Positions 17,280 to 56,176 of a DNA stretch of 64,000 nt are shown one piece after another. Position 1 is the first letter of the stretch. Each line of letters opens with the position of its first letter. The position numbers were made by a program, and so were the translations under genes. The notes below the pieces were generated by a model. That model was not told the DNA's origin. It searched no databases and saw only the letters and a program-made list of their open reading frames with translations. This DNA comes from Cellulosilyticum lentocellum DSM 5427 (GTDB lineage Bacteria; Bacillota; Clostridia; Lachnospirales; Cellulosilyticaceae), in assembly GCF_000178835.2 (NCBI RefSeq), contig NC_015275.1:1881001-1945000 (forward strand), given 5' to 3'.

Positions 17280-17302
17280 ACTTATATAAATCTAAAAAAT
17301 AA

Positions 17303-17575
17303 AGACGATGAAAAGACGAGTAAATCTTTACTAAGGTTTAAAGAGAGCCGAGGGAGCTGAAAATCGGTAACAAGGTAAGGATGGAAGAACAGCTTGGAGT
17401 TGCTAATCGAACGGCTATTGGCTTAGTAGACTTAGACGGGATAGACCGTTATATCTAAAACGTATCGAGTAATCTGTACGTTAGTGAGAGGATTTTAGTT
17501 TACTAAAGTCAATTAGGGTGGCAAACGCGAATCAACCTTCGTCCCTTACGTTTAAGGGAAGGAGGTTTTTTATAT
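17303..17575 (+). promoter_or_regulatory. T-box riboswitch, asparagine-specific, controlling asnA
   Basis: The leader has the usual T-box parts: AGAGAGCC and GAGGGAGCTG in the upper stem I, a candidate specifier codon AAC (17388-17390) followed by A, the T-box sequence AGGGTGGCAAACGCG (17515-17529), and a terminator stem (17534-17548 with 17553-17567, a 3-base internal mismatch) followed by TTTTT. AAC is an Asn codon, matching the downstream asparagine synthetase. Uncharged tRNA-Asn should favour the antiterminator and switch asnA on. The specifier choice rests on reading the stem-I alignment by eye. Confidence 0.87.
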
Positions 17576-40710: not shown

Positions 40711-40769
40711 TAAATTTTTGATTTAAAGAGAAATCTTTAAATAGAGATGAGTGGAAAGGAGTCATGAAA

Positions 40770-41462
40770 ATGATGTATTCACATGAAGTAGAACAAATGT
40801 GCCCAATCGCTAAAGGACCTAACCATGGGCCAGCACCAATCCCACAAGAGGGTAAATGGGTACAAGCAAAAGAAATTAAAGACATTAGTGGTCTTACACA
40901 CGGTGTAGGCTGGTGTGCACCACAACAAGGTGCTTGTAAATTAACACTTAACGTTAAAGATGGTGTGATTCAAGAAGCATTAGTAGAAACTATTGGATGT
41001 TCAGGTATGACTCACTCTGCAGCTATGGCAGCAGAAATCTTAGCAGGTAAAACAATTCTTGAAGCGCTTAACACAGACTTAGTTTGTGACGCAATTAACA
41101 CAGCAATGCGTGAGTTATTCTTACAAATCGTATACGGAAGAACTCAAACTGCATTCTCTGAAGGTGGACTTCCTATCGGTGCAGGTCTTGAAGACCTTGG
41201 TAAAGGACTTCGTAGCCAGGTTGGTACAATGTACTCAACAGTTGCTAAAGGACCAAGATACCTTGAAATGGCAGAAGGCTATGTAACAAATATCGCTCTT
41301 GATGCTGACGATCAAATCATCGGTTACCGTTTCATTCACTTCGGTAAAATGATGGACATGATTAAAAAAGGTATGGATGCAAACGAAGCAATTGAAAAAG
41401 CTACAGGTCAATACGGCAGATTTGATGATGCTGTACGTACAGTTGACCCAAGACATGAATAG
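40770..41462 (+). CDS. NifU/IscU-like iron-sulfur scaffold-family protein
   Basis: A 230-residue protein. The central part resembles NifU/IscU scaffolds, with cysteines at 49, 56, 77 (TIGCSGMTHSAA) and 106 (DLVCDAIN) in NifU-like positions, plus Cys11 near the N terminus and an extra C-terminal extension. Such proteins form a conserved pair with GGGtGRT proteins in anaerobes; the function of the pair is not established. Codons end in C far more often than in neighbouring genes, a sign of high expression. ATG 40770 is eight bases after AAGGAG; ATG 40764 is only two bases away. Confidence 0.82.
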   Translation: MMYSHEVEQMCPIAKGPNHGPAPIPQEGKWVQAKEIKDISGLTHGVGWCAPQQGACKLTLNVKDGVIQEALVETIGCSGMTHSAAMAAEILAGKTILEALNTDLVCDAINTAMRELFLQIVYGRTQTAFSEGGLPIGAGLEDLGKGLRSQVGTMYSTVAKGPRYLEMAEGYVTNIALDADDQIIGYRFIHFGKMMDMIKKGMDANEAIEKATGQYGRFDDAVRTVDPRHE

Positions 41463-41476
41463 GGAGGTGCCAAACA

Positions 41477-42478
41477 ATGCCATTATTTGAATCATATGAT
41501 AGAAGAATTAACCAAATTAACGTTGTTTTAAATAAATACGGAATCAAAGATATTGAAGAAGCTAGAACTATCTGTAAAGAAAAAGGCTTTGATCCATATG
41601 AAATCACAAAAGGAATTCAACCAATCGCTTTTGAAAACGCTTGTTGGGCTTACGTTGTAGGTGCAGCAATTGCTATCAAAAAAGGTTGTCACAAAGCGGC
41701 AGAAGCAGCAGAAGCTATCGGAGAAGGTCTTCAAGCATTCTGTATTCCAGGTTCTGTAGCGGATGACCGTAAAGTAGGTCTTGGTCACGGTAACTTAGGA
41801 GCTATGCTTCTTAGAGAAGAAACAAAATGTTTCGCATTCTTAGCAGGTCACGAAAGCTTTGCAGCTGCTGAAGGTGCTATCGGTATTGCACGTTCTGCAA
41901 ACAAAGTTCGTAAAGAAGATTTAAGAGTTATCTTAAATGGTCTTGGTAAAGATGCTGCTCAAATTATCTCTCGTATCAATGGGTTTACATATGTTCAAAC
42001 TCAATTTGATTATATGACAGGTAAAGTAAATGTAGTAAAAGAAATCGCATACTCAAACGGTGAACGTTCAAAAGTTCGTTGCTTTGGTTGTGATGATGTT
42101 CGTGAAGGTGTTGCAATCATGCATATGGAAGGTGTTGACGTATCTATTACAGGTAACTCAACTAATCCAACTCGTTTCCAACATCCAGTAGCTGGAACAT
42201 ACAAAAAAGAATGTGTTGAACAAGGTAAAAAATACTTCTCAGTAGCTTCTGGTGGTGGTACAGGTCGTACACTTCACCCAGATAACATGGCTGCTGGTCC
42301 AGCTTCTTATGGTATGACTGATACTATGGGAAGAATGCACTCAGATGCACAATTCGCTGGTTCTTCATCAGTGCCTGCTCACGTAGAAATGATGGGACTT
42401 ATCGGTATGGGTAACAACCCAATGGTAGGTGCTACAGTTGCTGTAGCCGTAGCTATCGAAGAAGCAATGAATAAATAA
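41477..42478 (+). CDS. GGGtGRT family protein
   Basis: A 333-residue protein named for its motif GGGTGRT (residues 259-265, in VASGGGTGRTLHPDN). Other marks are the glycine-rich CIPGSVADDRKVGLGHGNLG (89-108) and paired cysteines RCFGC (201-205). It follows the NifU-like gene by 14 bases with a GGGAGG site, so the two are co-expressed; the partner suggests Fe-S chemistry, but no reaction is known. Codon choice is biased like its partner's. A strong terminator follows. Confidence 0.88.
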   Translation: MPLFESYDRRINQINVVLNKYGIKDIEEARTICKEKGFDPYEITKGIQPIAFENACWAYVVGAAIAIKKGCHKAAEAAEAIGEGLQAFCIPGSVADDRKVGLGHGNLGAMLLREETKCFAFLAGHESFAAAEGAIGIARSANKVRKEDLRVILNGLGKDAAQIISRINGFTYVQTQFDYMTGKVNVVKEIAYSNGERSKVRCFGCDDVREGVAIMHMEGVDVSITGNSTNPTRFQHPVAGTYKKECVEQGKKYFSVASGGGTGRTLHPDNMAAGPASYGMTDTMGRMHSDAQFAGSSSVPAHVEMMGLIGMGNNPMVGATVAVAVAIEEAMNK

Positions 42479-42490
42479 TTCCTTTTTAGA

Positions 42491-42540
42491 ACAATAAAAA
42501 ACGGTAATCACGTATAGACGTGGTTACCGTTTTTTATTGT
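42491..42540. terminator. Terminator after the GGGtGRT gene
   Basis: A 23-bp stem (42491-42513 with 42518-42540, one G-T pair) around ATAG, with T-run in the descending arm. It would also terminate a minus-strand transcript coming from the unexplained region to its right. Confidence 0.85.
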
Positions 42541-42925
42541 CCAGACTCTGGTGAAACTTTCTCAGCTCCTTAAGTAGACCTTACTTCAAGGCATAGAAAT
42601 GGCTCCTCGGCACAACTAGCTAAAGAAGCAGTGACTACTTAAGAGAGCTATGAAAGTTCAAGCCATGAGTGAGGAGCTCTTAAAGTCTAGGCCCGGACTG
42701 TCCTATCTAGGAAGCGAAGACCTTAAGACTCTGATTTGAAACTTTGTTTGGTACTGCTAGGATGTAAAACTTTTTGACAACTTATAGGATGGCGCCTCCC
42801 TTGTAGCGCACCAGTGAACATTTTCCTTAGAGCCAGAGGTACCTGTAACAACAGATTGAGACTTGGTCGACCCGGTCAGTTCCTCAGGTTGATGCTGCAG
42901 TGATTATGCCGATGGAAGTTGTTTA
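42541..42925. ncRNA. Candidate structured non-coding RNA, family unknown
   Basis: No plausible gene lies here. By hand count 42541-42900 is 46% G+C, against 17% for 42961-43140. A helix of about 22 pairs with two bulges joins 42553-42577 to 42635-42659. There are many short palindromes (CTTAAG three times, GAGCTC, GGCGCC, AGGTACCT, GGTCGACC, CTGCAG, CCAGACTCTGG) and a direct repeat (42543-42560 and 42726-42745). I find no match to tmRNA, RNase P, SRP or 6S RNA. A minus-strand transcript would end at the 42491-42540 hairpin, so that strand is slightly favoured. Identity and strand are open. Confidence 0.45.
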
Positions 42926-43097
42926 TTTTATTTTACATTAATATATATGTACTAGGACGAAATATTCCCTAACAAAAAAATAAAATTTATTCTTGTATAT
43001 TTTAGTGCCTATAAAAGTGTAATAAATTGCAATAAAATCTTGTGAAAGGTATAAGATATTTATGTTTTAGTTTAAATATTTAATAATGTCATATAAT

Positions 43098-43164: not shown

Positions 43165-44529
43165 GTGCAATATGATAGTAGACTAGAAAAAAGTAATCAA
43201 ATTAAATCCAAAATAATAGAAAATATAAGAGAGTACTATGAGATTAATTTCAAAGATCAACAAGTATTTACACCTGGAGAACGTATTGCATATGGAGGAA
43301 GGGTTTTTGATGAAGATGAGATGATTCATTTAGTGGACTCTGCTTTAGAATTCTGGCTTACTACGGGGCGTTATAGTCAACAGTTTGAAAAGGAATTTAG
43401 TGAATTTTTAAGTGTAAAATATTGTTCACTAACAAATTCAGGTTCATCTGCTAATTTGCTAGCTTTTATGGCATTGACTTCATATAAGTTAGGGGAGCGT
43501 CGCATACAAAAAGGAGATGAGGTGATTACAGTAGCCGCAGGTTTTCCAACAACTATTGCTCCTATTATCCAATATGGTGCAATCCCTGTTTTTGTTGATG
43601 TGACATTGCCGCAATACAATATAGATGTGAGGCAACTAGAAAGTGCTAAAAGCGAGCGCACAAAAGCTGTTATGGTTGCACATACATTGGGAAATCCTTT
43701 TGACATAGAAACAGTAAAAACATTTTGTGACAAATATAAACTCTGGCTAGTAGAAGATAATTGTGACGCTTTAGGTTCTCAATATTATTACAAGGGAGAA
43801 TGGCGTTATACAGGAACGATAGGTGATATTGGAACCTCTAGCTTTTATCCACCACATCATATGACAATGGGAGAGGGTGGAGCGGTATACACTAATCATA
43901 TAGAACTAAAACAAATTATAGAATCATTTAGAGATTGGGGAAGAGACTGCTTTTGTGCGTCAGGACAAGATAATACTTGTAAGCATCGTTTTACAGGACA
44001 GTTTGGTGAACTTCCTAAGGGATATGATCATAAATATGTATACTCCCACTTTGGTTATAATTTAAAAGTAACAGACATGCAAGCAGCTATAGGATGTGCG
44101 CAGCTAAAAAAATTACCACACTTTATTGAGGAAAGACAAAGGAATTGGGCTTATTTAAAAAAGGGATTAGCTGATTTGACAGCGTTTTTTCTCTTGCCAG
44201 AAGCGGCTGATAAGAGTAATCCAAGTTGGTTTGGTTTCCTTATCACTCTAAAAGAAGATGTTTCTTTCTCTAGAGACGATGTGGTGCAATACATAGAAAG
44301 TCGTGGTATTCAAACACGTATGTTGTTTGCCGGGAATATTGTGAGACAACCTTGTTTTGATGAGTTACGAGAAGCAGAAGAAAGTTATAGAGTAGTAGGA
44401 GAATTACTACAAACAGATCGTATTATGAAAAGCACTTTTTGGATAGGTGTTTATCCGGGGATGACAAAGCCTATGCTAGATTACATGATTCAAGTATTAC
44501 ATGAGTTTGTTGATAATAACATGAAATAA
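43165..44529 (+). CDS. rfbH: CDP-4-keto-6-deoxyglucose 3-dehydratase (RfbH/DdhC, E1)
   Basis: A 454-residue PMP-dependent [2Fe-2S] enzyme of the aminotransferase fold that removes the 3-hydroxyl on the way to 3,6-dideoxyhexoses. The usual PLP lysine is replaced by His, in SFYPPHHMTMGEGG (His231/His232), the hallmark of E1. Iron-sulfur cysteines are visible: Cys262, Cys264 and Cys272 (CFC then x7 then C), with Cys200 as probable fourth ligand. It starts at GTG 43165 after AGGATGTGG. First gene of the cluster; product feeds the ThDP and SDR enzymes downstream. No E3 reductase partner is seen in the window. Confidence 0.92.
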   Translation: MQYDSRLEKSNQIKSKIIENIREYYEINFKDQQVFTPGERIAYGGRVFDEDEMIHLVDSALEFWLTTGRYSQQFEKEFSEFLSVKYCSLTNSGSSANLLAFMALTSYKLGERRIQKGDEVITVAAGFPTTIAPIIQYGAIPVFVDVTLPQYNIDVRQLESAKSERTKAVMVAHTLGNPFDIETVKTFCDKYKLWLVEDNCDALGSQYYYKGEWRYTGTIGDIGTSSFYPPHHMTMGEGGAVYTNHIELKQIIESFRDWGRDCFCASGQDNTCKHRFTGQFGELPKGYDHKYVYSHFGYNLKVTDMQAAIGCAQLKKLPHFIEERQRNWAYLKKGLADLTAFFLLPEAADKSNPSWFGFLITLKEDVSFSRDDVVQYIESRGIQTRMLFAGNIVRQPCFDELREAEESYRVVGELLQTDRIMKSTFWIGVYPGMTKPMLDYMIQVLHEFVDNNMK

Positions 44530-44552
44530 GACTGAACGAGTAGGGGGAAAAT

Positions 44553-45326
44553 ATGAAATTAGTTATTTTAGCAGGGGGATATGGCACAAGATTAGGAGAA
44601 ATTTCTCAGCTATTACCAAAACCTATGGTGGAAATAGGAGGTAAACCAATTATCTGGCATATTATGAAAATCTATTCCTACTATGGTATTAAGGAATTTA
44701 TTTTATGTTTAGGATATAAAGCCGATTTGATAAAGAATTATTTTTTGCACTATGCCGCAAAACAAGATGATTTTACTATTAATATAGGTACAGGAGAAGT
44801 GACTTATTTGACGCATCATGATGAACAAGATTGGAAGATTACATTAATCGATACAGGCGTAGATACACTTAAAGGCGGTAGGCTAAAACGTATTGAAAAA
44901 TATTTAACGGATGATATTAATCTCTTAACCTATGGAGATGGTGTAGCTGATATTAATATTAATGAATTAATTGATTTTCATTTAAGAGCCAATAAAACTG
45001 TAACGATTTCCGGGGTTCATCCACCAGCACGTTTTGGTGAACTTAGAACAGATGGAGATGTACTGGCTTCTTTTAAGGAAAAAGCACAGACCTCACAGGG
45101 GCTTATTAATGGTGGATTCATGGTGTTTAATAAAGAACTATTAAGTTACTTATCTGAGGATGAGGACTGTGATTTAGAATATGGAACATTTGAGCGATTA
45201 GCAGAACAAGGAAAAATCGGAGTATTTACTCACGATGGACTATGGGCATGTATGGATAATGAAAGAGATATTTACCACCTCAATCAAATGTGGAAAGAAA
45301 ATAAGGCATTTTGGAAGGTGTGGTAA
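44553..45326 (+). CDS. rfbF: Glucose-1-phosphate cytidylyltransferase
   Basis: A 257-residue nucleotidyltransferase that makes CDP-glucose from CTP and glucose-1-phosphate, the first step of CDP-deoxyhexose synthesis. The signature LAGGYGTRLGE (7-17) and PKPMVEIGGKPI, and YGDGVADIN (about 130-138) for metal binding, fit RfbF; length is standard. It is followed within 2 bases by rfbG and sits 23 bases after rfbH. Confidence 0.94.
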   Translation: MKLVILAGGYGTRLGEISQLLPKPMVEIGGKPIIWHIMKIYSYYGIKEFILCLGYKADLIKNYFLHYAAKQDDFTINIGTGEVTYLTHHDEQDWKITLIDTGVDTLKGGRLKRIEKYLTDDINLLTYGDGVADININELIDFHLRANKTVTISGVHPPARFGELRTDGDVLASFKEKAQTSQGLINGGFMVFNKELLSYLSEDEDCDLEYGTFERLAEQGKIGVFTHDGLWACMDNERDIYHLNQMWKENKAFWKVW

Positions 45327-45328
45327 TA

Positions 45329-46408
45329 ATGGAGAATTTTAATAATATTTATAAAGACAAAGTAGTATTAGTGACGGGACATACAGGATTTAAAGGTTCT
45401 TGGCTATGTATTTGGTTGCTTGAATTAGGTGCTAAAGTAATTGGTTATGCTTTGGAACCTAATTCTCAGAAGGATATATTTGTCTTAGCTCAACTACAAG
45501 ATAAAATGGTTGATATAAGAGGGGATATAAGGGATATCAATAAGTTGAAAAATGTATTTGAAGAATATAAGCCAGAATATGTATTTCATTTAGCAGCGCA
45601 GCCGTTAGTAAGAGAGTCTTACGAAAAACCTTCGGAAACATATGAAGTGAATGTAATGGGGACGATTCACGTTTTAGAATGCATTAGAAATACTCCAGCA
45701 ACTAAAGTAGGTGTATTAATAACCACTGATAAGTGCTATGACAATAAAGAGCAACCGTGGGGGTATCGTGAAAATGATGCATTAGGGGGGTATGATCCTT
45801 ATAGTTCATCAAAAGCAGCAGCGGAAATAGCTATTCAATCTTGGCGAAATTCTTTTATGTCTCCTGTAAATTATGAGATACATCAAAAAGCTATTGCTTC
45901 AGCAAGAGCAGGAAATGTTATAGGTGGAGGAGATTGGGCTAAAGATAGGCTTATTCCAGATTGTATGAGGGCAATATTTAGTGAAGAAGAAATATTTATA
46001 AGAAATCCACAAGCTATTAGGCCATGGCAACATGTATTAGAGCCTTTGAGGGGCTATTTGAAATTAGGAGAAATGTTAACTAAATATCCACAACAGTATA
46101 GTCAGGCTTGGAATTTTGGACCAACCATAGACTCTATTATACCTGTAGGAGAACTGGTTCAAAAATTAATCCACTGTTATGGAAGTGGTAAGGTGAATTG
46201 TATTCAAGAACAAACCTTATGTCATGAGGCTAATTGGCTTAATTTAGATATTAGTAAATCAGTATTTAAGCTAGGCTGGAAACCGATACTCCATATAGAT
46301 GAGGCTATACGCTATACAGTAGAATGGTACAAACAATATCAGAAAGAAGACTGCTATTTATTAAGTGTTAAGCAGATTACAAACTATACAGACTTAATGA
46401 TGAACTAA
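45329..46408 (+). CDS. rfbG: CDP-glucose 4,6-dehydratase
   Basis: A 359-residue extended SDR that converts CDP-glucose to CDP-4-keto-6-deoxyglucose. The NAD motif is TGHTGFKGSW (about 15-24), the catalytic triad region includes TTDKCY (about 134-139) and YDPYSSSK (Tyr and Lys of YxxxK, about 158-165). ATG 45329 follows GGAAGGTG; an upstream in-frame start at 45311 would overlap rfbF without a good site. Supplies the substrate of RfbH. Confidence 0.94.
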   Translation: MENFNNIYKDKVVLVTGHTGFKGSWLCIWLLELGAKVIGYALEPNSQKDIFVLAQLQDKMVDIRGDIRDINKLKNVFEEYKPEYVFHLAAQPLVRESYEKPSETYEVNVMGTIHVLECIRNTPATKVGVLITTDKCYDNKEQPWGYRENDALGGYDPYSSSKAAAEIAIQSWRNSFMSPVNYEIHQKAIASARAGNVIGGGDWAKDRLIPDCMRAIFSEEEIFIRNPQAIRPWQHVLEPLRGYLKLGEMLTKYPQQYSQAWNFGPTIDSIIPVGELVQKLIHCYGSGKVNCIQEQTLCHEANWLNLDISKSVFKLGWKPILHIDEAIRYTVEWYKQYQKEDCYLLSVKQITNYTDLMMN

Positions 46409-46430
46409 GAAAGAGAGAAGGAAGCAAATC

Positions 46431-48227
46431 ATGATTAGAGTGGCAGATTATATCACAAAAAAATTAGTTACTTATGGGGTAAAAGATGTTTTTATGATTT
46501 CTGGAGGGGGTGCTATTTTCCTAAATGATGCTATTGGTAGAAATTCAGACCTACGTTATATCTGTAATCAACATGAGCAAGCATGCAGTATAAGTGCAGA
46601 AGGGTATGCAAAATCTACAGGTAAATTAGCTGTAGTATGTGTTACAACAGGGCCTGGAGGAACCAATACGATTACGGGGTTAATGGGACAATGGCTAGAT
46701 TCTACACCTGTATTATATCTGTCAGGGCAAGTGAAATATTCTACAACTATTGCATCTTGCCCTGAAGTAGGTCTTAGACAATTAGGTGATCAAGAAATTA
46801 ATATTATAGATGTTGTAAGGCCATTAACCAAATATGCCAAGATGATTGTAGAGCCAGAGGATATAAAAGTAGAGTTGGATAAGGCTATTCAAATGGCGTT
46901 AGAAGGAAGACAAGGTCCTGTATGGCTAGATATTCCTATTAATATTCAATCAGCACTAATTGAAGAAGAGGCAAAAAATGCTGTCGTGGAAATAATAGGA
47001 ACAGAAATAGAAAGAGAGAAAGTGCTAGAAACTAAAATAGATCAAGTACTTGAACTACTTAAGAATGCTAAAAGACCGTTAATATTAGCTGGTCATGGCA
47101 TTCGTATGGGAAATGCCATAGATTTATTTCATATGGTAAGAGAGCAATTACCTATTCCTATTGTTTCGAGTTTTAATGGTTGTGACTTGATGGAAACAGA
47201 GCATCCTAACTATGTTGGGCGTGTCGGAACTATAGGAGATCGTGCTGGAAATTTTGCTGTGCAAAATGCCGATGTTCTTTTATGCTTAGGAACAAGAAAC
47301 AATATTAGGCAAGTAGGCTATAATTGGGATGAATTTGCAGCACAGGCTACTAAAATTGTAGTGGATATTGATGAGAGAGAACTAATGAAGCCTACGGTTA
47401 AACCAGATTTTCCGGTACATACAGATATTAAACTATTCTTAAGAGGGTTAATAGAACAATCAAAGGGGATGGTATTTCCTAAATGGGAAGAATGGCATCA
47501 GTGGTGTATGGATAAGAAAGAACGTTATCCTGTTGTGTTAGAGGCGTATAAAAAAGATAATAAAATCAATCCTTATTATTTTGTAGATGTCTTAAGTAGG
47601 CAATTAGAAGAAGAAGAAATAGTAATTACAGGTAATGGAACATGTTCAGTTTGCTATTTCCAAGCGGGCTTTATTAAAAAAGGCCAACGTGTGATTTGGA
47701 ATTCGGGTTGTGCTGCTATGGGATATGATTTACCAGCTGCTATTGGTGCTGCTATAGCTCATCCTAATAAACGAGTGATCTGTTTAGCAGGAGATGGTAG
47801 TTTGCAAATGAACATTCAAGAACTGGAGACTTTGAAGTATTATCAGCTTCCAGTAAAATTATTTATTTTAGATAATCAAGGCTATATTTCAATTAAGCAG
47901 ACTCAAGATAATTTGTTCGAAGGCTTTAAAGTAGCTAGTGATCCTTCACATGGTGTAGGGATTCCTGATTTTATAAATATTGCAGAAGCGTATGGTATAA
48001 AGACAGTATGTATCAAAAATACTAATGATTTTTCTAAAATAAAGGAGATATTAAAGGATGAAGGACCCGCAGTTTGTGTTGTTAAATTAAAAACAGATTA
48101 CATTTTTGCGCCAAAATCTGCTTCACAAAAGTTAGAAGATGGCACTATAGTGTCTAAACCATTAGATGATATGTATCCTTTCTTAGATAGGAAAGAATAT
48201 GTGACTAATAAGATAAATATTGAGTAG
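46431..48227 (+). CDS. ThDP-dependent enzyme, acetolactate-synthase-like (YerE-type candidate)
   Basis: A 598-residue thiamine-diphosphate enzyme. It has the cofactor-activating glutamate Glu49 (CNQHEQACSI), a central domain, and the ThDP motif GDGS...DNQG (from about 455). Family proteins include acetolactate synthase. In a 3,6-dideoxyhexose cluster the best parallel is YerE of Yersinia, which adds an acetyl unit from pyruvate to C4 of CDP-4-keto-3,6-dideoxyhexose to make a branched sugar. The phrase LRQLGDQEINIIDVVRP resembles that sugar-type branch. Housekeeping acetolactate synthase is less likely because no regulatory subunit or ilv genes adjoin. Substrate is inferred. Confidence 0.8.
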   Translation: MIRVADYITKKLVTYGVKDVFMISGGGAIFLNDAIGRNSDLRYICNQHEQACSISAEGYAKSTGKLAVVCVTTGPGGTNTITGLMGQWLDSTPVLYLSGQVKYSTTIASCPEVGLRQLGDQEINIIDVVRPLTKYAKMIVEPEDIKVELDKAIQMALEGRQGPVWLDIPINIQSALIEEEAKNAVVEIIGTEIEREKVLETKIDQVLELLKNAKRPLILAGHGIRMGNAIDLFHMVREQLPIPIVSSFNGCDLMETEHPNYVGRVGTIGDRAGNFAVQNADVLLCLGTRNNIRQVGYNWDEFAAQATKIVVDIDERELMKPTVKPDFPVHTDIKLFLRGLIEQSKGMVFPKWEEWHQWCMDKKERYPVVLEAYKKDNKINPYYFVDVLSRQLEEEEIVITGNGTCSVCYFQAGFIKKGQRVIWNSGCAAMGYDLPAAIGAAIAHPNKRVICLAGDGSLQMNIQELETLKYYQLPVKLFILDNQGYISIKQTQDNLFEGFKVASDPSHGVGIPDFINIAEAYGIKTVCIKNTNDFSKIKEILKDEGPAVCVVKLKTDYIFAPKSASQKLEDGTIVSKPLDDMYPFLDRKEYVTNKINIE

Positions 48228-48243
48228 AATGGTGGAATGTATA

Positions 48244-49224
48244 ATGAAGAAAGTCAGTATAGTAATTCCTACATATAATGAAGAAGAAAATGTAATGCTT
48301 ATTACTAGTAGAGTTGAAGAAATTATGACTAGAGAATTAAATCAGTATGATTATGAAATTCTTTTTATTGATAATTGTTCAACTGATAGAACTAGGGAGT
48401 TACTTAGAAACTTGTGTAAAACTAATAAAAAGGTGAAAGTAATATTAAATGCAAAGAATTTTGGACAGTCAAATTCGCCCTATTATGCATTATTACAAAC
48501 AACAGGTGATTGTGTTATTGGATTAGTTGCTGATTTTCAGGACCCTCCAGAGATGATAGTGGATTTTGTTAAGAAGTGGGAAGAGGGGTATCGAATTGTT
48601 ATTGGAATAAAAACAACAAGTAAAGAAAATAAGATAATGTACTTTTTGAGAGGTTGTTATTATAAGACACTTAAGAAGATAGCTAATGTAGAGCAGATTG
48701 AGCAGTTTACAGGGTTTGGATTATATGATAGGAGTTTTATAGAAGTATTAAGAGGATTGAAGGATCCAATGCCTTATTTTAGAGGTATTGTAGCAGAACT
48801 AGGATTTGAAAGAGCAGAGATTGAATATGTACAGCCAAAAAGAGAAAGAGGTAAAAGTAAAAATAATTTCTTTACTCTGTTTGATTTTGGGATGCTAGGA
48901 ATTACATCTTATTCAAAGGCAGTACTAAGATTAGCTACCATAGGAGGATTTATTATTGGGGGAATAAGTTTTGTTGTTGGGATAATTTATTTTATAATGA
49001 AACTTATTTATTGGGAGCGATTTGTAGCTGGAATGGCACCTATATTAATAGGAATGTTTTTCTTAGGAGCAGCACAACTATTTTTCATAGGGTTTTTAGG
49101 AGAATACATAATGAATATTAATGCAAGGGTAATGAATCGCCCATTAGTAGTTGAAGAAGAACGTATCAATTTTGAAAAGGAGAGAGATATACAGGGAGAG
49201 AAGAATGAAAAAGATGAATCTTAA
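48244..49224 (+). CDS. GT2 glycosyltransferase, polyprenyl-phosphate type (CsbB/GtrB-like)
   Basis: A 326-residue enzyme with a cytoplasmic GT-A domain (1-225) and two C-terminal membrane segments (about 233-257 and 270-292). The opening KKVSIVIPTYNEEENV, the metal motif region VADFQDPPEM (about 91-100) and RGKSKNNFF are typical of GtrB/CsbB/DPM1-like enzymes that load a sugar onto undecaprenyl phosphate. ATG 48244 follows GGTGGA; earlier in-frame starts add a tail without support. It overlaps the GtrA-like gene by 20 bases. Confidence 0.9.
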   Translation: MKKVSIVIPTYNEEENVMLITSRVEEIMTRELNQYDYEILFIDNCSTDRTRELLRNLCKTNKKVKVILNAKNFGQSNSPYYALLQTTGDCVIGLVADFQDPPEMIVDFVKKWEEGYRIVIGIKTTSKENKIMYFLRGCYYKTLKKIANVEQIEQFTGFGLYDRSFIEVLRGLKDPMPYFRGIVAELGFERAEIEYVQPKRERGKSKNNFFTLFDFGMLGITSYSKAVLRLATIGGFIIGGISFVVGIIYFIMKLIYWERFVAGMAPILIGMFFLGAAQLFFIGFLGEYIMNINARVMNRPLVVEEERINFEKERDIQGEKNEKDES

Positions 49225-49615
49225 ACTAATAAGCTTGTTTAAGAAAAATAGGCAATTCATTAGATTTATAATTGTTGGTGTCAGTAATTTGACGATTTCA
49301 CTTGTAACATATTATTTGATGCTTTATCTAGGGGTATATTATCAAATAGCTAATATCTTCGGCTTTGTTTTTGGAAGTTTAAATGGCTACTTTTGGAATA
49401 GAAATTGGGTGTTTAAAATCAAACAAAATAGCATTATATCTATTCTAAAATTTTATTCAACCTATTTAGGAACGTGGATATTATCAACTATTTTGCTATG
49501 GTTAGAGATAGAAATAATAGGAATTTCAGAAATGATAGCTCCATTTATTAATATATTTATTACAACACCCTTAAATTACGTATTAAATAAATACTGGACT
49601 TTTGAAAAAAGATAA
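49205..49615 (+). CDS. GtrA/GtcA-family membrane protein, probable lipid-sugar flippase
   Basis: A 136-residue protein with four membrane segments (about 18-36, 43-63, 80-100, 108-126). The text RFIIVGVSNLTISLVTYY, NRNWVFK and LNKYWTFEKR is diagnostic of GtrA. These proteins are thought to flip undecaprenyl-phosphate sugars made by the partner GT2 enzyme. It overlaps that gene by 20 bases. ATG 49205 follows GGGAGAG; earlier readings overlap more and lack a site. Confidence 0.9.
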   Translation: MKKMNLKLISLFKKNRQFIRFIIVGVSNLTISLVTYYLMLYLGVYYQIANIFGFVFGSLNGYFWNRNWVFKIKQNSIISILKFYSTYLGTWILSTILLWLEIEIIGISEMIAPFINIFITTPLNYVLNKYWTFEKR

Positions 49616-49645
49616 TATTAATAAAGACAAAGAATAGGGGATAAA

Positions 49646-50575
49646 ATGAAAATAGCTGTAATTACAGGGAGCACGGGTTTTATTGGATCGCATTTGACTC
49701 TTAAGTTACTAAAAGAAGGTTATGAGGTATACGCACTGATAAGAGAAGGTTCGTCGTTTAAAATGGAACTAAGTCATTATAGAGGATTAAATGTAATTAA
49801 AGGTGATATTAAAAATGTAGAAATTATACTTGAGCATATAAATACGTGTGACGTATTTTTTCATTTAGCATGGGAAGGTGTAAATAGGAAGAATATAGAT
49901 AATATACAAGTTCATGAACAAAATGTACTTTATTCTATGAAATGCATTGAAGTAGCGCTAAAACTTAATTGCAAATGTTTTATCCATACAGGATCTAGCG
50001 CTGAATATGGAATAGGACAAAATGGGATGTTTAAAGAAAGCCAGAAGGTAAAGCCTATTAGTGCCTATGCAAAAAGTAAATGGTTATTTTATTGTAAAGC
50101 AAGCAAGTTATGCTTAAACACTGAAATGAGATTTTTACATGTTCGTATTTTTAGTGTATATGGAATAAATGATCATCCTTGGTCTTTGGTATATACTACA
50201 ATTAGTAGACTACTAAAAAACGAAGATGTAAGACTAGGAAAATGTATCCATTACTGGAATTATATATATATTGATGATTTGGTTGAAGGTATTATAGCGT
50301 TATATGATAATTCTTATAAAATACCTAAAAATGATAGTGGGATATTTAATATTGCTAGTAATGACACTAGGGTATTAAAGAACTTTGTTGAAGAAATTCA
50401 TAGGATAACGTGCAGTCAAGGGAAATTGCAATTTGGAGCAATTGAACAAACAAGTAAAGAAGCAATATCAATGCAACCTAATATAAACAAAATAGGCATT
50501 ATAACAGAATGGAAATCTAAAATTTCTTTTGAAGAAGGCATAAAAAACATGATAGAGAAAATGGAGGGGGATTAA
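49646..50575 (+). CDS. NAD-dependent epimerase/dehydratase (extended SDR) 1
   Basis: A 309-residue nucleotide-sugar SDR. The cofactor motif is TGSTGFIGSH (8-17) and the catalytic motif YAKSK (about 138-142), preceded by a Ser-rich HTGSSAEYG strand (about 113-121). It is related to the second SDR at 51762, suggesting a pair acting on similar sugars, for example ketoreduction or epimerisation after branching. Exact reaction unknown. The last base of its stop codon is the first base of the next start. Confidence 0.88.
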   Translation: MKIAVITGSTGFIGSHLTLKLLKEGYEVYALIREGSSFKMELSHYRGLNVIKGDIKNVEIILEHINTCDVFFHLAWEGVNRKNIDNIQVHEQNVLYSMKCIEVALKLNCKCFIHTGSSAEYGIGQNGMFKESQKVKPISAYAKSKWLFYCKASKLCLNTEMRFLHVRIFSVYGINDHPWSLVYTTISRLLKNEDVRLGKCIHYWNYIYIDDLVEGIIALYDNSYKIPKNDSGIFNIASNDTRVLKNFVEEIHRITCSQGKLQFGAIEQTSKEAISMQPNINKIGIITEWKSKISFEEGIKNMIEKMEGD

Positions 50576-51711
50576 TGAGAAGGTGTATAGTGTGTAGTGG
50601 GGAATTCTTTAAAGAACCACTTTTAATATATAAGAATATGCCGAGTGCTGCTCAAAACATGCCCACTCAATTAGAGGTGACTAGGGACTATGGGATTGAT
50701 TTAGAACTGTATCAATGCAGTTGCTGTGGATTGATACAGTTTGCTGTGGAACCAGTAAATTATTACAAAGATGTAATTAGAGCTAGTAGCTTTGGAAAAA
50801 CTATCACAGATTTAAGGAGAAAACAGTATAAGGATTTTATTGAGAAGTTTAATTTGTACGATAAAAAAATATTAGAGATAGGATGCGGTCAAGGCGAATT
50901 TTTAGAAATACTAAAGGAATTCAATGTGAAACCTTTTGGCATCGAAAATAAAAAGGAGCTAGTAGATAGAGGAATTAGAAAAAATCTAAATATCGTGCAG
51001 GGATTTATAGAGGGAAAAGAGAATGTTATACAGAATGGAAAATTTGACGCATTTTTATCATTTAATTTTTTGGAACATCAGCCTAATCCTAATGGAATGC
51101 TACAAGGTATACATGAGAATTTAGTGGATGAGGGCGTGGGAATTATTACTGTTCCAAGTTTTGAATACTTTATTGAAAATGATAGCTTTTATGAATTTAT
51201 TAGAGACCATATAGCTTATTATACAGAAGAAACACTTACCTTTTTATTACAAAAGAATGGATTTCAAATAGTAGAGATAAGTCGCTTTAATAGAGATACA
51301 ATATCAGCATATGTTAAAAAAAGAAGTAGAGCAGACTTATCTAAATTTCAGCTGAATTTTAATCAGTTAACAGAGGATATAAATACATATATTGATTTAT
51401 TAAAAAAAAATGATAATAAAGTAGCTATTTGGGGAGCTAGTCATCAATGTTTTACAATTTTATCAGCAGCGGAGCTACAAGGTAAGATAGAATACATTAT
51501 TGATTCCGCAACCTTTAAGCAAGGTAAATATTCTCCAGCTACACATATTCCTATAGTATCACCTGAATTTTATTTTACAAATAAGGTTCAAGCAATTATT
51601 GTAATAGCGCCTGGTTATTCACAGGAGATTATTCAAATTATAAAAAAACATTACAATGATGATATTAAAATAGCAGTGATCCAATCAAGAACATTAGAAT
51701 ATATAAATTAG
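50575..51711 (+). CDS. Sugar C-methyltransferase-like protein (TylC3 family)
   Basis: A 378-residue protein with three parts: an N-terminal zinc-finger-like region (1-60, CIVC and CSCC pairs, residues 4-7 and 48-51), a class I SAM methyltransferase domain (about 95-215, LEIGCGQGEFLEIL) and a C-terminal Rossmann-like domain (about 275-375, VAIWGASHQCF). This is the layout of NDP-hexose 3-C-methyltransferases such as TylC3. It would add a methyl branch to a keto-deoxysugar. Start overlaps the SDR stop by one base. Substrate inferred from the cluster. Confidence 0.85.
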   Translation: MRRCIVCSGEFFKEPLLIYKNMPSAAQNMPTQLEVTRDYGIDLELYQCSCCGLIQFAVEPVNYYKDVIRASSFGKTITDLRRKQYKDFIEKFNLYDKKILEIGCGQGEFLEILKEFNVKPFGIENKKELVDRGIRKNLNIVQGFIEGKENVIQNGKFDAFLSFNFLEHQPNPNGMLQGIHENLVDEGVGIITVPSFEYFIENDSFYEFIRDHIAYYTEETLTFLLQKNGFQIVEISRFNRDTISAYVKKRSRADLSKFQLNFNQLTEDINTYIDLLKKNDNKVAIWGASHQCFTILSAAELQGKIEYIIDSATFKQGKYSPATHIPIVSPEFYFTNKVQAIIVIAPGYSQEIIQIIKKHYNDDIKIAVIQSRTLEYIN

Positions 51712-51761
51712 CTGCAAAGGTAATAAATCAGTATTAAAAATATTTAGTAGAACACGAGAGG

Positions 51762-52676
51762 ATGAGAAAAATTAAGAAGGTTATTGTAACAGGGGCAACA
51801 AGCATGATAGGATCTGCTTTGATAGAATACTTAGTGGATAGGAATATTAAGGTATTAGCAGTCTGCAGGAAAGAAACTTCAAAAATAGAAAATCTTATTT
51901 TACATCCTAATGTAAAAGTTCAATTTGCAGACTTAAATGAATTAGATCAGCTAGAGAGTACGGAACAATATGATGCTTGTTATCATTTTGCATGGCAAGG
52001 TACAAATGCGGAATATAGAGAAGATGTATATTTGCAAAATAGTAATATCAAATATACACTAGATGCAGTAAAAATGGCTAAAAGATTAGGTTGCAAAGTT
52101 TTTATAGGAGCAGGCTCTCAATCAGAATATGGAAGGGTTGAAGGAAAATTATCTCCTGAAACTAAAATAGCACCAGAAAATGCATATGGTATTTCAAAGT
52201 ATTGTGCAGGTAAAATAAGTGCAGTTTATGCAAAACAGTTAAATATAAAACATATATGGGTAAGAATAGTGAGTGTATATGGACCTAGATGTGGTGAATC
52301 AAGCATGATTATATCTACAATACAAAAATTATTAAAAGGTGAGGAACCTGAATTTACAAAAGGAGAACAAGTTTGGGATTACTTATATTGTGAAGATGCA
52401 GCGAGAGCATTATATCTTTTAGCAAATAAAGGAAAAGATCAGGAAGTATACTGTATGGGAAGTGGTAATCCAGAACCACTTATCACTTATCTTTACAAAA
52501 TAAGAGATGCTATAAATCCAAACATTTCATTGAGAATAGGAAAGAAGCCTTATATAGATAATCAAATCATGTATTTGTGTGCAGATATCAGTAAACTAAC
52601 ACAAGATACGGGGTTTATTCCAAAAATATCTTTTGAAGAGGGCATAAAAAAAACAATTAACTATTGTAAAAAATAA
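51762..52676 (+). CDS. NAD-dependent epimerase/dehydratase (extended SDR) 2
   Basis: A 304-residue nucleotide-sugar SDR with TGATSMIGSA (10-19) for cofactor and YGISK (about 143-147) as catalytic YxxxK, after GAGSQSEYGR (about 117-126). It resembles the SDR at 49646 in layout. The only in-frame ATG lies immediately after GAGAGG with no spacer, so translation may be weak or the true start is an unusual codon. Probably reduces or epimerises the branched sugar. Confidence 0.86.
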   Translation: MRKIKKVIVTGATSMIGSALIEYLVDRNIKVLAVCRKETSKIENLILHPNVKVQFADLNELDQLESTEQYDACYHFAWQGTNAEYREDVYLQNSNIKYTLDAVKMAKRLGCKVFIGAGSQSEYGRVEGKLSPETKIAPENAYGISKYCAGKISAVYAKQLNIKHIWVRIVSVYGPRCGESSMIISTIQKLLKGEEPEFTKGEQVWDYLYCEDAARALYLLANKGKDQEVYCMGSGNPEPLITYLYKIRDAINPNISLRIGKKPYIDNQIMYLCADISKLTQDTGFIPKISFEEGIKKTINYCKK

Positions 52677-52697
52677 GTAATAGTAGGGGATGATTTT

Positions 52698-53519
52698 ATG
52701 ATTAGAAATATTAAAGTATTTGATTGTACATTAAGAGAAGTAGGTTATCAAACCGGATGGCACTTTGATGAAGAATTTTATCATACAGTTTATAAATATG
52801 CTTTAGGTAAGTATATTGATTACATAGAATTAGGTTTCTTTCATAATGAACAGGCAGATACTAACAGAGGGTTGGGAAGGTATTGTAGCCTAAGAAATAA
52901 TGAGCTAAGGGAAATATTCTCAAATATAAAAAATGTTACTAAGATATCTGCCATGAGAGATATTCAGAGACCTTTAGCACCATTATTGTCCAGAACGGAA
53001 AGCATTGTGGATGCAGTTAGAATATTAACCCGTTCCCATGAAACGGACTTTAATGTTTTAGGAAGACATATTGAAGAAATTATGAGTTTGGGATATGAGA
53101 CTTTCGTCAATTTTACAAGTTCTGGCTATAATACCATTGATAAAAATCAAGCTTTTGTGAAGTTTATCAAAGAGCAAGGTGTAGATGTAGTTTATTTTGC
53201 AGATACAGAGAGTGTTATGACAATTGATTATGTTGTAGATACGATTAATATGTGTAAAGCTGAAGGTATAAAAGTAGGCATGCATTTCCACAATAAAACA
53301 GGCATGGCAGAAATTTTGACTGACACAGCTATTAGAGAAAATGTAGATTTTATTGATGCTACTCATTTAGGACTAGGGGGAAAGTGGAGAGATGGTAATT
53401 TAACCTTTGACTATTTATTGAGTAAGATGGGAACCGTTGGAGGCTTTGAAGCGACTCATTTAAAAAATGAAATGATTGAACAGATTATTAAGTATAATAC
53501 TTATTCTTGTGCTGAATAA
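52698..53519 (+). CDS. DRE-TIM metallolyase-like aldolase (HMGL-like)
   Basis: A 273-residue TIM-barrel protein of the HMG-CoA lyase/4-hydroxy-2-oxovalerate aldolase superfamily. It has the DRE-type motif DCTLRE (residues 9-14) and the metal-binding HFHN (about 197-200: GMHFHNKTG). It is shorter than 4-hydroxy-2-oxovalerate aldolases (about 340) and lacks their C-terminal communication region. Related enzymes cleave or form C-C bonds with pyruvate- or acyl-derived units. Its place among sugar genes suggests it adds or removes a carbon unit on a sugar or its branch; this is inference. Confidence 0.8.
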   Translation: MIRNIKVFDCTLREVGYQTGWHFDEEFYHTVYKYALGKYIDYIELGFFHNEQADTNRGLGRYCSLRNNELREIFSNIKNVTKISAMRDIQRPLAPLLSRTESIVDAVRILTRSHETDFNVLGRHIEEIMSLGYETFVNFTSSGYNTIDKNQAFVKFIKEQGVDVVYFADTESVMTIDYVVDTINMCKAEGIKVGMHFHNKTGMAEILTDTAIRENVDFIDATHLGLGGKWRDGNLTFDYLLSKMGTVGGFEATHLKNEMIEQIIKYNTYSCAE

Positions 53520-53548
53520 GCTAATGAGTATAAAAAAGGGGAAACTTT

Positions 53549-56176
53549 ATGAAGCAATGTAAAGAATGGTTAAATGAAAATCGATTTATTATATTAGGTT
53601 TTTTGATTCCGTTTTTTGTTTGGATTTTTCTATGTATTATTATGTGCATTACACCCTTTGGACCATATAGCTTACTAATATCAGATTTGGAAGCGGGACA
53701 TATTGATGCATTAACGAAACTTAGAGATATTGTATTAGAAGGTAAAAGTTTAGCATATTGTTGGGGACAAATACAAGGGAGTACACCTTTTGCGGGACTT
53801 GGTTTAGGTACCTTGATAAGCACATTTAATTTTATAATATTTTTTGTGGAAAAAGATCAAATTTTATCAGCATTAACTTGGATTATTATTTTGAGGATTG
53901 GATGTTGTGGTGCAACTTGTGCATTTTATTTGAAAAAGACTTTTAAACGAAATGATATAAGTATTAGTATCTTCGCGTGGTGCTACGCGCTGATGGCTTA
54001 TGCCGTGATTTACTATTTCCATATTATATGGCTAGACCAAATCATGATGCTTCCTTTAGTGTTATATGGAGTGGAAAAGATCTTAAAAAATAAAAAGAAC
54101 TATCTTTACTTTACAATTACACTTACGCTAATCTTTTTCATGAACTTTTATATGGCTTATATGACTGGTGTATTTGCTTTCTTATACTTTGTCTATAGAT
54201 ATTTGGCTGTAGAAAAAGAGTATTTATTAAAAGACTTTATAGGAAAGTTAGGCACTTTTTTAGTTAGTCCAATATTAGCTTTAGGTTGTAGTAGTGTGCT
54301 CTTAATTCCTATATTTAATATGATGCCCGGAAGAGATGGACTTTTTAATCCTGATCAAATGGCAATGTCATTACGCTACGAATTTTCAGGTCTAATGAGC
54401 AAATTATGTATCGGGAGTTTTGATACAGCCTTGCCTGGTGGATTGCCTTACATTTATTGTGGCTTAATTGTTGTAATCCTTATGTTTTTCTATTTCTTAA
54501 GTTATAGCATTACTTATAAGGAAAAGCTCCTTACCTTCTTTTTAGGCTTATTTATGTTTTTATCTATGACTGTTAATCCACTTTATGTAGCGTGGCATGG
54601 TTTTAAACCACCCGTATATTTTGAGGGACGCTTCACTTATATAGTTAGTTTTTTGATGATATGGATTGCGTACAAAGGGTATTGTGTATTTAATACCATT
54701 TCCATACGACAAGTACATACCACTTTTGGAATTATAGGTACTGCAGTTATCTTACTTAATCGACAAGTATATAGTTACATAACAGATGAATCGCTTCTAT
54801 ATACAGTTGTCTTCATTATTTTATATTATTTACTTATTGTTTTAGTCAAGCAAAAGCCAAGCTATAAAAAGCAAGGCACATTACTATTAGCATTATTAGT
54901 TGGATTAGAACTAGGGAATAATGCCATGATGAGTATTCAAACGATTGATAAGGGTGGGCAACTTCCTTTGGTTACTAAATATACTTCAGCATATAATACT
55001 ATTAAAAGTGATGTGGATGAAATTATGGCTATGGATCCAGGATTCTATCGTATAGAGAAAGATAGTGAAAGAAGTATGAATGATGGATTTGGGATAGGTT
55101 ATCCAAGCATAGGACATTTTGATACTATTTATAATTATGAAGTGAAAAAAACGATAGGTGATATGGGTGTTCAAACGGGACACAACTGGATTCGTTATAA
55201 AGGTAGTACTCCTATTACGGATATGCTAGTGAATATTAAGTATACAATGATCCAAGATGATACCTATCAAAGTTATAAGAATATAAAAGAAAAAGAATTT
55301 GTAAATTATTACGAAAACCCTTATGCAGTATCAGCAGGTTTTATGATAGCCAATCCAATCAATGAGGGTATTAGAGCGACTAATCCACTAACCTTGCAAG
55401 AAACCATTCTAAACGAAATGCTTGGAGAAAAGGATAACAATTATTATATACCTTTAACTCCTTATTCTGTTACTAAAGAAAATACAGGAAAAGTAGAACG
55501 TGAAGATAGCACAGTAAACCAGGCGAATGATGAAAAAAAAGGAGTGGTAACAGTCTATTATAGCAAAGATAATTATGCAGATTCTAAAATTAATTATAAG
55601 CTAAAAGTGGGAAAAGAGGGTCCTTGTTATATGTACGTGGATCAGATAAATGGCGGTAAGATGGCTATTATTGTTAATGATGATAAAGTTATACCAGCTG
55701 AATTTGACTACGGCAATTATGTGATGTATCTCGGAGACTTTAAATCTGGAGAAGAAGTTCAAGTAACCCTTCAACTTCTCCAACCTGAATTTGCAATGAA
55801 AAATATATGGTTTTATACATTAGACACCAAGGCGCTAGAAACGACAAGCAATGTATTAAGAGAACAGGCCTTGATGATTACAAAGCATTCAGATACCGAG
55901 CTAGAAGGAAAACTTATCGTAAATGATATAAAAAGCTATTTATATACTTCTATTCCTTATGATAAGGGGTGGACTATCTATGTAGATGGTAAGCGGATTG
56001 AGACTATAAAAGTACTTCATGGTTTCTTAGGAGCTAAAATAAGTGAAGGTAAACATACAATACGTTTAGTATACTCGCCTTATGGTTTTAAACTAGGATT
56101 GGGAATATCGATTTTATCAGGAATGGTAATCATTTTACTATTTATAATAAAATTAAATAAAAATAAAAAGCATTAA
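53549..56176 (+). CDS. YfhO-family membrane glycosyltransferase-like protein (GT-C)
   Basis: An 875-residue protein with about twelve or thirteen membrane segments in the first ~460 residues, a large extracytoplasmic domain (about 470-840) and one final segment (about 850-868). Asp46 in the first outer loop (SDLEAGH) is where GT-C enzymes carry a catalytic acid. YfhO transfers sugars from lipid-phosphate carriers to wall polymers in Bacillus and Listeria, working with a CsbB-type GT2 and a GtcA-type flippase, both of which are encoded in this cluster. Acceptor here unknown. AAAAAAGGGG precedes the ATG. Last gene of the cluster; no clear terminator follows. Confidence 0.87.
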   Translation: MKQCKEWLNENRFIILGFLIPFFVWIFLCIIMCITPFGPYSLLISDLEAGHIDALTKLRDIVLEGKSLAYCWGQIQGSTPFAGLGLGTLISTFNFIIFFVEKDQILSALTWIIILRIGCCGATCAFYLKKTFKRNDISISIFAWCYALMAYAVIYYFHIIWLDQIMMLPLVLYGVEKILKNKKNYLYFTITLTLIFFMNFYMAYMTGVFAFLYFVYRYLAVEKEYLLKDFIGKLGTFLVSPILALGCSSVLLIPIFNMMPGRDGLFNPDQMAMSLRYEFSGLMSKLCIGSFDTALPGGLPYIYCGLIVVILMFFYFLSYSITYKEKLLTFFLGLFMFLSMTVNPLYVAWHGFKPPVYFEGRFTYIVSFLMIWIAYKGYCVFNTISIRQVHTTFGIIGTAVILLNRQVYSYITDESLLYTVVFIILYYLLIVLVKQKPSYKKQGTLLLALLVGLELGNNAMMSIQTIDKGGQLPLVTKYTSAYNTIKSDVDEIMAMDPGFYRIEKDSERSMNDGFGIGYPSIGHFDTIYNYEVKKTIGDMGVQTGHNWIRYKGSTPITDMLVNIKYTMIQDDTYQSYKNIKEKEFVNYYENPYAVSAGFMIANPINEGIRATNPLTLQETILNEMLGEKDNNYYIPLTPYSVTKENTGKVEREDSTVNQANDEKKGVVTVYYSKDNYADSKINYKLKVGKEGPCYMYVDQINGGKMAIIVNDDKVIPAEFDYGNYVMYLGDFKSGEEVQVTLQLLQPEFAMKNIWFYTLDTKALETTSNVLREQALMITKHSDTELEGKLIVNDIKSYLYTSIPYDKGWTIYVDGKRIETIKVLHGFLGAKISEGKHTIRLVYSPYGFKLGLGISILSGMVIILLFIIKLNKNKKH

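Follow-up and report, generated by a model that had tools for sequence, protein, structure and literature searches.

What sugar is made by a gene cluster that combines the enzymes of cytidine diphosphate (CDP)-3,6-dideoxyhexose synthesis with a thiamine diphosphate (ThDP)-dependent enzyme, a C-methyltransferase and an aldolase-like protein? Such a cluster is found in Cellulosilyticum lentocellum DSM 5427, whose genome is a single contig of 4,714,237 bases (NC_015275.1), within a stretch of 64,000 nucleotides (positions 1,881,001 to 1,945,000, forward strand) hereafter called the window, in whose numbering coordinates are given. Branched CDP-3,6-dideoxyhexoses are already known, namely yersiniose, erwiniose, caryophyllose and gastriose. 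Judged from its genes, the cluster probably makes and exports one CDP-activated, erwiniose-type branched sugar bearing an extra C-methyl group, and its unusual part is the C-methyltransferase, which is strongly linked to YerE-like genes. An earlier note on this DNA had placed the cluster at 43165-53519. The genes that it named were borne out, positions, strands and families all being correct by open reading frame check and profile scores, and its domain assignments hold for the C-methyltransferase (Methyltransf_23 and Methyltransf_14), the two short-chain dehydrogenases/reductases (SDRs; Epimerase family in both) and the DRE-TIM lyase (HMGL-like). The extent did not stand, as the unit reaches 56176 and also includes GtrB, GtrA and YfhO. 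The 11 genes form one run on the + strand (43165-56176, approximately 13 kb) with intergenic gaps of -17 to 50 bp, in the following order:

43165..44529, +, RfbH, CDP-4-keto-6-deoxy-glucose 3-dehydrase (E1); NF011936 742.8 bits, cut-off 423
44553..45326, +, RfbF, glucose-1-phosphate cytidylyltransferase; TIGR02623 321.1 bits, cut-off 300.25
45326..46408, +, RfbG, CDP-glucose 4,6-dehydratase; TIGR02622 492.6 bits, cut-off 278.45; alternative TTG start at 45311
46431..48227, +, YerE-like ThDP enzyme, proposed to perform decarboxylative acyl transfer onto the 4-ketone; thiamine pyrophosphate (TPP) domains PF02776, PF00205, PF02775
48244..49224, +, GtrB/DPMS-like GT2, proposed polyprenyl-phosphate-sugar synthase; Glycos_transf_2, PgfS and ArnC models below cut-off; alternative TTG start at 48220
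49208..49615, +, GtrA-family membrane protein, proposed flippase; PF04138 87.2 bits
49646..50575, +, SDR1, proposed ketoreductase or epimerase; Epimerase family
50575..51711, +, TylC3/TcaB9-type sugar C-methyltransferase; Methyltransf_23 and C-terminal Methyltransf_14
51762..52676, +, SDR2, proposed branch ketoreductase with a YerF-like role; Epimerase family; in several relatives, a homologue comes next after the ThDP gene
52698..53519, +, short HMGL-like DRE-TIM aldolase, proposed to supply the 2-oxo acid donor; PF00682 41.5 bits, cut-off 29; 3dxi E 3e-14
53549..56176, +, YfhO-family membrane glycosyltransferase, proposed to perform extracellular transfer; PF09586 593.4 bits; starts 29 bp after 53519

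No terminator-like site was found on the + strand between the 11 genes, both + strand matches being intragenic, in a scan whose yield was at the level of shuffled sequence (5 vs 4.6). Type IV pilus genes start at 56375, downstream of YfhO.

The ThDP protein possesses all three TPP domains, with a GDG motif at 454 and HEQ at 48, which we take to be the cofactor motif and the catalytic Glu of the TPP decarboxylase fold. Among solved structures, its best relative is 8rph (E 6e-110), followed by an acetolactate synthase (E 1.6e-73), and it is hence closer to the former. Entry 8rph appears to be JanthE, a YerE-like enzyme, based on its CDG motif in the alignment and on a published description (PMC12247030; this and all other papers are cited from excerpts), and it differs in this motif from the window enzyme, which carries the canonical GDG. 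Isolated ketones have been described as known substrates of a single decarboxylase subclass, the YerE-like lyases (PMC12247030), and JanthE takes both pyruvate and 4-hydroxy-2-oxovalerate. In Yersinia pseudotuberculosis, YerE adds activated acetaldehyde to CDP-3,6-dideoxy-4-keto-D-glucose during yersiniose A biosynthesis and is limited to C3 donors, pyruvate being preferred, while in Pectobacterium atrosepticum, ErwE branches CDP-4-keto-3,6-dideoxyglucose at C4 with 4-hydroxy-2-oxo acids as donors, leading to erwiniose (PMC12247030). The earlier note had proposed a YerE-like enzyme performing acetyl transfer; the first part of this proposal is upheld by the 8rph match, whereas an acetyl donor is less likely, the ErwE precedent favoring a hydroxylated 2-oxo acid.

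Across the order to which C. lentocellum belongs, the ThDP gene is present in at least 58 of 392 genomes (1e-100 limit, up to three candidates scored per genome), and the protein has no match at 1e-90 among plasmids. Forty ThDP loci were fetched from 39 of the 57 other genomes, not strictly by rank, and several of their contigs end within the stretch. An RfbH at least 48% identical is present in 19 of these 40 loci; in the window, it belongs to the same operon. No C-methyltransferase was found in any of the 40 loci picked by ThDP similarity, so that this enzyme marks a subset of ThDP loci.

The C-methyltransferase itself matches TcaB9 by profile over nearly its whole length (E 2.4e-32). Like TylC3 and TcaB9, which act on thymidine diphosphate (dTDP) sugars of antibiotics, it contains the Zn-site cysteines, an S-adenosylmethionine (SAM) domain and a C-terminal Methyltransf_14 domain. 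The N-terminal Zn cysteines, C4, C7, C48 and C51, are invariant in nine sequences, and His212 aligns with the catalytic His of TcaB9, whose catalytic residues we take to be a His/Tyr pair; the Tyr position is not conserved.

Surveyed at 1e-40, the C-methyltransferase occurs in 12 of the 392 order genomes, the window's included. In the other 11, the ThDP gene is located 2.0-2.9 kb away in 10 and 7.5 kb away in one, although these genomes are not independent, as they fall in seven genera. When 84,980 species genomes were scanned for two peptide patterns, 329 relatives were confirmed by tblastn, of which the best 80 loci were kept (a choice that makes them lean to near relatives; loci are designated below by L and a number). 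Among these best 80, a ThDP homologue (37-52% identical) is present within 10 kb in 75, and within 4.5 kb in 72. No ThDP gene was seen in the stretches of the five others (L151, L170, L176, L196 and L220); in L176 the last 33 ThDP residues remain at the contig end, and in L196 the adjacent SDR is cut at the contig end. A GtrB homologue is found in 70 of the best 80 loci and a gene best matching SDR1 in 59. The best 80 include Clostridia, Brachyspira innocens and Fusobacterium naviforme, together with bins labelled Ignavibacteriales, Elusimicrobia, Syntrophaceae, Patescibacteria, Microgenomates, Pseudomonadota and archaeon.

The closest match to the window is B. innocens ATCC 29796 (L197), which has nearly the same set of eight genes on one strand, followed by glycosyltransferases: RfbF, RfbG, RfbH, a short HMGL-like protein (57% identical), the ThDP enzyme (49%), the C-methyltransferase (49%), an SDR1-like protein (37%) and another SDR. 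The ThDP enzymes of the window and of L197 are sisters in a mixture-model tree (support 100/98); both are long branches in a quick tree, and the L197 sequence has an odd composition in both trees. GtrB, GtrA and YfhO have no match in the 14.3-kb stretch of L197, and the pathway is suggested by the gene content common to the two loci.

Supply of the nucleotide sugar would depend on RfbF, RfbG and RfbH. In RfbH, a His replaces the lysine that binds pyridoxal phosphate (PLP) and four cysteines are spaced C-X61-C-X1-C-X7-C, features which we take to be the hallmarks of E1 (His for Lys, and 2Fe-2S cysteines); in the comparison set, the four cysteines are present in 19 of 21 sequences and the His motif in 20 of 21. 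RfbH is over its cut-off in all 12 order genomes with the C-methyltransferase, the window's included, the comparison rate across the order being that of RfbG. RfbG is likewise over cut-off in all 11 others, and was positive in 21 of 21 genomes tested (these 11, nine chosen for their ThDP gene, and the window's own), against a background of 27 of 146 across the order, in a sample that overlaps with the 11 by one genome and also contains that of the window. In the 11 genomes, RfbG and RfbH are always outside the 20-kb stretch around the C-methyltransferase.

4-Hydroxy-2-oxo acids are products of HMGL-type pyruvate aldolases (4-hydroxy-2-oxovalerate aldolase chemistry). Since ErwE prefers 4-hydroxy-2-oxo acids (PMC12247030), the HMGL-like protein of the window most likely makes, by analogy, the donor used by its ThDP enzyme. 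The short HMGL-like proteins of the window, L069 and L197 have in common the motifs DC(S/T)(L/F)RE and H-x-H. Searches for this aldolase retrieved 13 of 398 genomes of the phylum at 1e-10, counting that of the window (best other 3.5e-22), and 18 of 59 genomes among relatives at 0.001 (best other 9.2e-22).

Four types of donor gene adjoin the ThDP gene: the short HMGL-like type (window, L069 and L197); a longer HMGL-like type, whose scanned copy (L066) carries a fused HAD phosphatase domain; an acetaldehyde dehydrogenase with a 4-hydroxy-2-oxovalerate aldolase, or MhpF/MhpE-type pair (L100 and L105); and a NeuB-like type. In 11 of the 80 C-methyltransferase loci, from bins of several phyla (L173, L180, L186, L188, L190, L191, L198, L215, L219, L220 and L224), there is a NeuB-like protein that shares 46-59% identity with its L127 counterpart; in 10 of these loci, the stretch also includes a ThDP gene. 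A donor route based on phosphoenolpyruvate (PEP) is thereby suggested. Mapped on a tree of 125 ThDP rows (120 different proteins, some genomes being in both the C-methyltransferase and the order sets), donor type changed 16 times, whereas shuffles averaged 36.2 changes and gave a value as low in 0 of 200, with clustering figures here and below inflated by near-copies. After dropping three weak labels among the 15 NeuB ones (L097, L099 and L221, 25-28% matches), 16 changes were obtained against 33.4; with the 35 rows having a donor gene, five against 14.4; and on a careful 39-row tree under a mixture model, 11 against 21.1 (0/200 in each case). The long-aldolase labels of L077, L125 and L211 belong to genes located 5-7.5 kb away from the ThDP gene. 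In L069, the short aldolase stands beside a ThDP enzyme of a different clade, which suggests that the donor module is exchangeable.

Other arrangements of these genes were also encountered. In L105 (5665-11100), RfbF, RfbG and RfbH are followed in one run by a split transketolase, acetaldehyde dehydrogenase, 4-hydroxy-2-oxovalerate aldolase and the ThDP gene, which would bring two kinds of ThDP chemistry to one sugar. The aldolase has distant matches only among plasmids, phages and viruses, with 10 plasmid matches of which three loci were inspected. Those of Legionella and Priestia are without sugar genes, while in that of Desulfobaculum bizertense (L035, 5846-10014), RfbH is accompanied by an HMGL-like gene and by a split transketolase, which may there take the place of a YerE-like enzyme.

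Based on these families, a pathway can be proposed. RfbF and RfbG would produce CDP-4-keto-6-deoxyglucose, from which RfbH would remove the 3-hydroxyl. The HMGL-like protein would condense pyruvate with an aldehyde to form a 4-hydroxy-2-oxo acid, which the ThDP enzyme would decarboxylate, adding the resulting hydroxyacyl unit to the C4 ketone. As in the ErwE reaction, the product would be a tertiary alcohol bearing a side chain. The C-methyltransferase might add a carbon beside a ketone, possibly at ring C3 or C5 and before branching, as its family occurs alike with the short aldolase, the long aldolase, the NeuB-like protein and no donor gene. SDR1 and SDR2 would reduce or epimerize ketones. 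For export, the sugar may be transferred to polyprenyl phosphate by GtrB and flipped by GtrA before YfhO attaches it extracellularly.

Among known pathways, that of yersiniose has a reductase after YerE and, to our knowledge, needs no aldolase, no C-methyltransferase and no other carbon-adding enzyme. The window's run does not match it, having a C-methyltransferase and an HMGL-like gene in the operon and no E3 found. With erwiniose, it would share C4 branching by a YerE-like enzyme with a 4-hydroxy-2-oxo acid donor, but it differs in that its operon contains a C-methyltransferase, two SDRs, a short DRE-TIM protein and GtrB/GtrA/YfhO; for Pectobacterium, the comparison is with the published description. 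Caryophyllose (MMAR_2332) and gastriose (MygE) of mycobacteria are also C4-branched, with long hydroxylated chains, and tied to YerE-like enzymes (PMC12247030), the caryophyllose chain being C6 (PMC7821131). No C-methyltransferase is mentioned for them in the excerpts. The earlier note had argued that a second C–C enzyme and a C-methyltransferase suggest a more complex branch. A CDP-branched 3,6-dideoxy sugar beyond yersiniose remains the favored view; the lyase is no longer an oddity given the ErwE precedent.

Several observations weigh against this proposal. The C-methyltransferase, unlike TylC3 and TcaB9, has no Tyr at the place of TcaB9 Tyr222. The three short HMGL-like aldolases all have a Glu at what we take to be the usual metal-site Asp, the predicted model of the window's protein is poor (predicted local distance difference test, pLDDT, 56.7), and its close relatives are rare. 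No donor gene is near in 87 to 90 of the 125 ThDP rows (90 under stricter limits), and the two MhpE rows do not cluster on the ThDP tree. In 59 of the 80 C-methyltransferase loci (58 at a looser limit), no Rfb gene at least 40% identical is nearby. There is no E3 reductase (RfbI) for RfbH in the cluster, and the genome's one FAD_binding_6 place lies in a frame of 255 amino acids, presumably shorter than an E3. Similarly, no plant-type ferredoxin pattern was found in frames of 280-420 amino acids in 47 RfbH-region loci other than the window, comprising 36 RfbH-bearing loci of the ThDP and C-methyltransferase sets and 11 from a second fetch. Either another reductase serves RfbH or 3-deoxygenation differs. 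The earlier statement that RfbF, RfbG and RfbH give CDP-4-keto-3,6-dideoxyglucose thus stands for the three genes, which are all over cut-off, while the product would follow from their families and the usual E3 of RfbH was not found. Finally, the GtrB/GtrA/GT-C trio was not supported as a general rule, a large multi-transmembrane gene being near GtrB in only 12 of 79 loci, no more than expected from the background (13 of 392 genes in those loci).

These observations leave room for other readings. The ThDP enzyme could transfer acetyl from pyruvate as in yersiniose synthesis, one SDR performing the reduction, with the C-methyltransferase and the aldolase serving another sugar or being vestigial. 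The acceptance of pyruvate by JanthE, the closest solved relative, and the many ThDP rows with no donor gene near are in line with this reading; it is nevertheless unlikely, since aldolase, ThDP enzyme, C-methyltransferase and SDR1-like gene co-occur again in Brachyspira, the C-methyltransferase is linked to the ThDP gene in 75 of the best 80 loci, and donor type tracks the ThDP tree. A little less likely still, the operon could make two CDP sugars, a branched 3,6-dideoxyhexose (RfbH, ThDP enzyme and SDR2) and a C-methyl-6-deoxyhexose (RfbG, C-methyltransferase and SDR1). The RfbG product is, we assume, a plausible type of substrate for a TylC3-like enzyme, and each branch could have its own SDR, but it is the ThDP gene that accompanies the C-methyltransferase in its nearest relatives, including loci with no Rfb gene nearby, and there is only one GtrB/GtrA/YfhO set. 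That the enzymes act on something other than a CDP-sugar, e.g., a lipid-linked or secondary-metabolite ketone, would explain the loci with no Rfb gene nearby; it is very improbable given that all 11 order genomes with the C-methyltransferase keep RfbG and RfbH and that, in the window, all the genes are in one operon.

The single branched and C-methylated CDP sugar is therefore preferred for the window. A broader and more tentative reading, which we hold at somewhat less than even chances, is that of an undescribed, cross-phylum class of doubly C-branched 3,6-dideoxyhexoses, with a C4 hydroxyalkyl branch and a C-methyl group. A common ThDP/C-methyltransferase core would be combined with one of several interchangeable modules that determine the branch, namely a short aldolase, an aldolase with a phosphatase, an MhpF/MhpE-type pair or a NeuB-like enzyme, and would operate without an RfbI-type reductase, with polyprenyl-phosphate delivery.

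Regarding delivery, the window's run contains a single set of a GT-A glycosyltransferase (GtrB-like), a GtrA-type flippase and a YfhO GT-C. The same families act together in CsbB/GtcA/YfhO glycosylation, in which a GT-A enzyme using polyprenyl phosphate, a GtrA-type flippase and a YfhO GT-C handle Glc, Gal, GlcNAc or unknown sugars (PMC8035078). GtrB-type enzymes use a UDP-sugar (PMC11127046), whereas the sugar of the island would be supplied by a CDP donor.

The run from RfbH to YfhO is most likely an island, gained or lost as one unit, because its flanking genes adjoin without it in two congeners. In L226 and L227, homologues of the window's GGGtGRT (96% and 92% identical) and PilB (71% and 65%) genes are adjacent, approximately 290 bases and 1.1 kb apart, respectively, and the island is absent. 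In L226, blastn aligns the left flank over 1035 bases at 93% and the beginning of PilB at 67%, with nothing significant for the 13 kb between them. This flank test is based on L226 and L227; three other congener contigs end too early and one is without a PilB match. In the six congeners, the HMGL-like protein has no match at 0.001 and the C-methyltransferase none at 1e-40. A role in type IV pilus glycosylation was considered and is unsupported: as GGGtGRT and PilB adjoin in two congeners without the island, the neighboring pilus genes appear incidental.

Upstream of the island, the NifU_N-like and GGGtGRT genes (40764-42478) are 92-97% identical in two congeners, far above the conservation of adjacent genes. 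At its left edge (42540-42990) lies a non-coding element of approximately 450 bp, with at least 38 genomic matches including itself; the other copies are 72-84% identical, many being partial, and across 21 copies the 3' half is highly conserved. In Rfam, the element stays below every gathering score, four copies searched at E up to 1 giving two matches far below gathering, and it has no match in the six congeners and one 104-base match in another genus of the family. Its folding is somewhat better than that of shuffles (z -2.1) and covariation is almost nil (2 of 69 pairs of the consensus fold). It may be a mobile repeat or a structured RNA. Elsewhere in the window, a T-box leader is located at 17299-17549 (119.1 bits).

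Tertiary branched-carbon sugars are rare and demanding to make, and 3-C-methyl-branched monosaccharides have been called quite uncommon (Chem. Rev., excerpt). No description of a pathway combining a YerE-like enzyme with a C-methyltransferase was recognized in the open literature, consulted mostly as titles and abstracts, a scope that leaves out a 2024 survey covering over 200 YerE-like clusters. If the proposal is correct, it would raise a concrete enzymological question, namely what reduces RfbH where no RfbI is found. The linkage between YerE-like enzymes and the C-methyltransferase would then be the mark of unknown surface sugars, forming a family that extends over Clostridia, a spirochaete and bins from several further phyla, and their side chain would be predictable from the adjacent, exchangeable donor gene.

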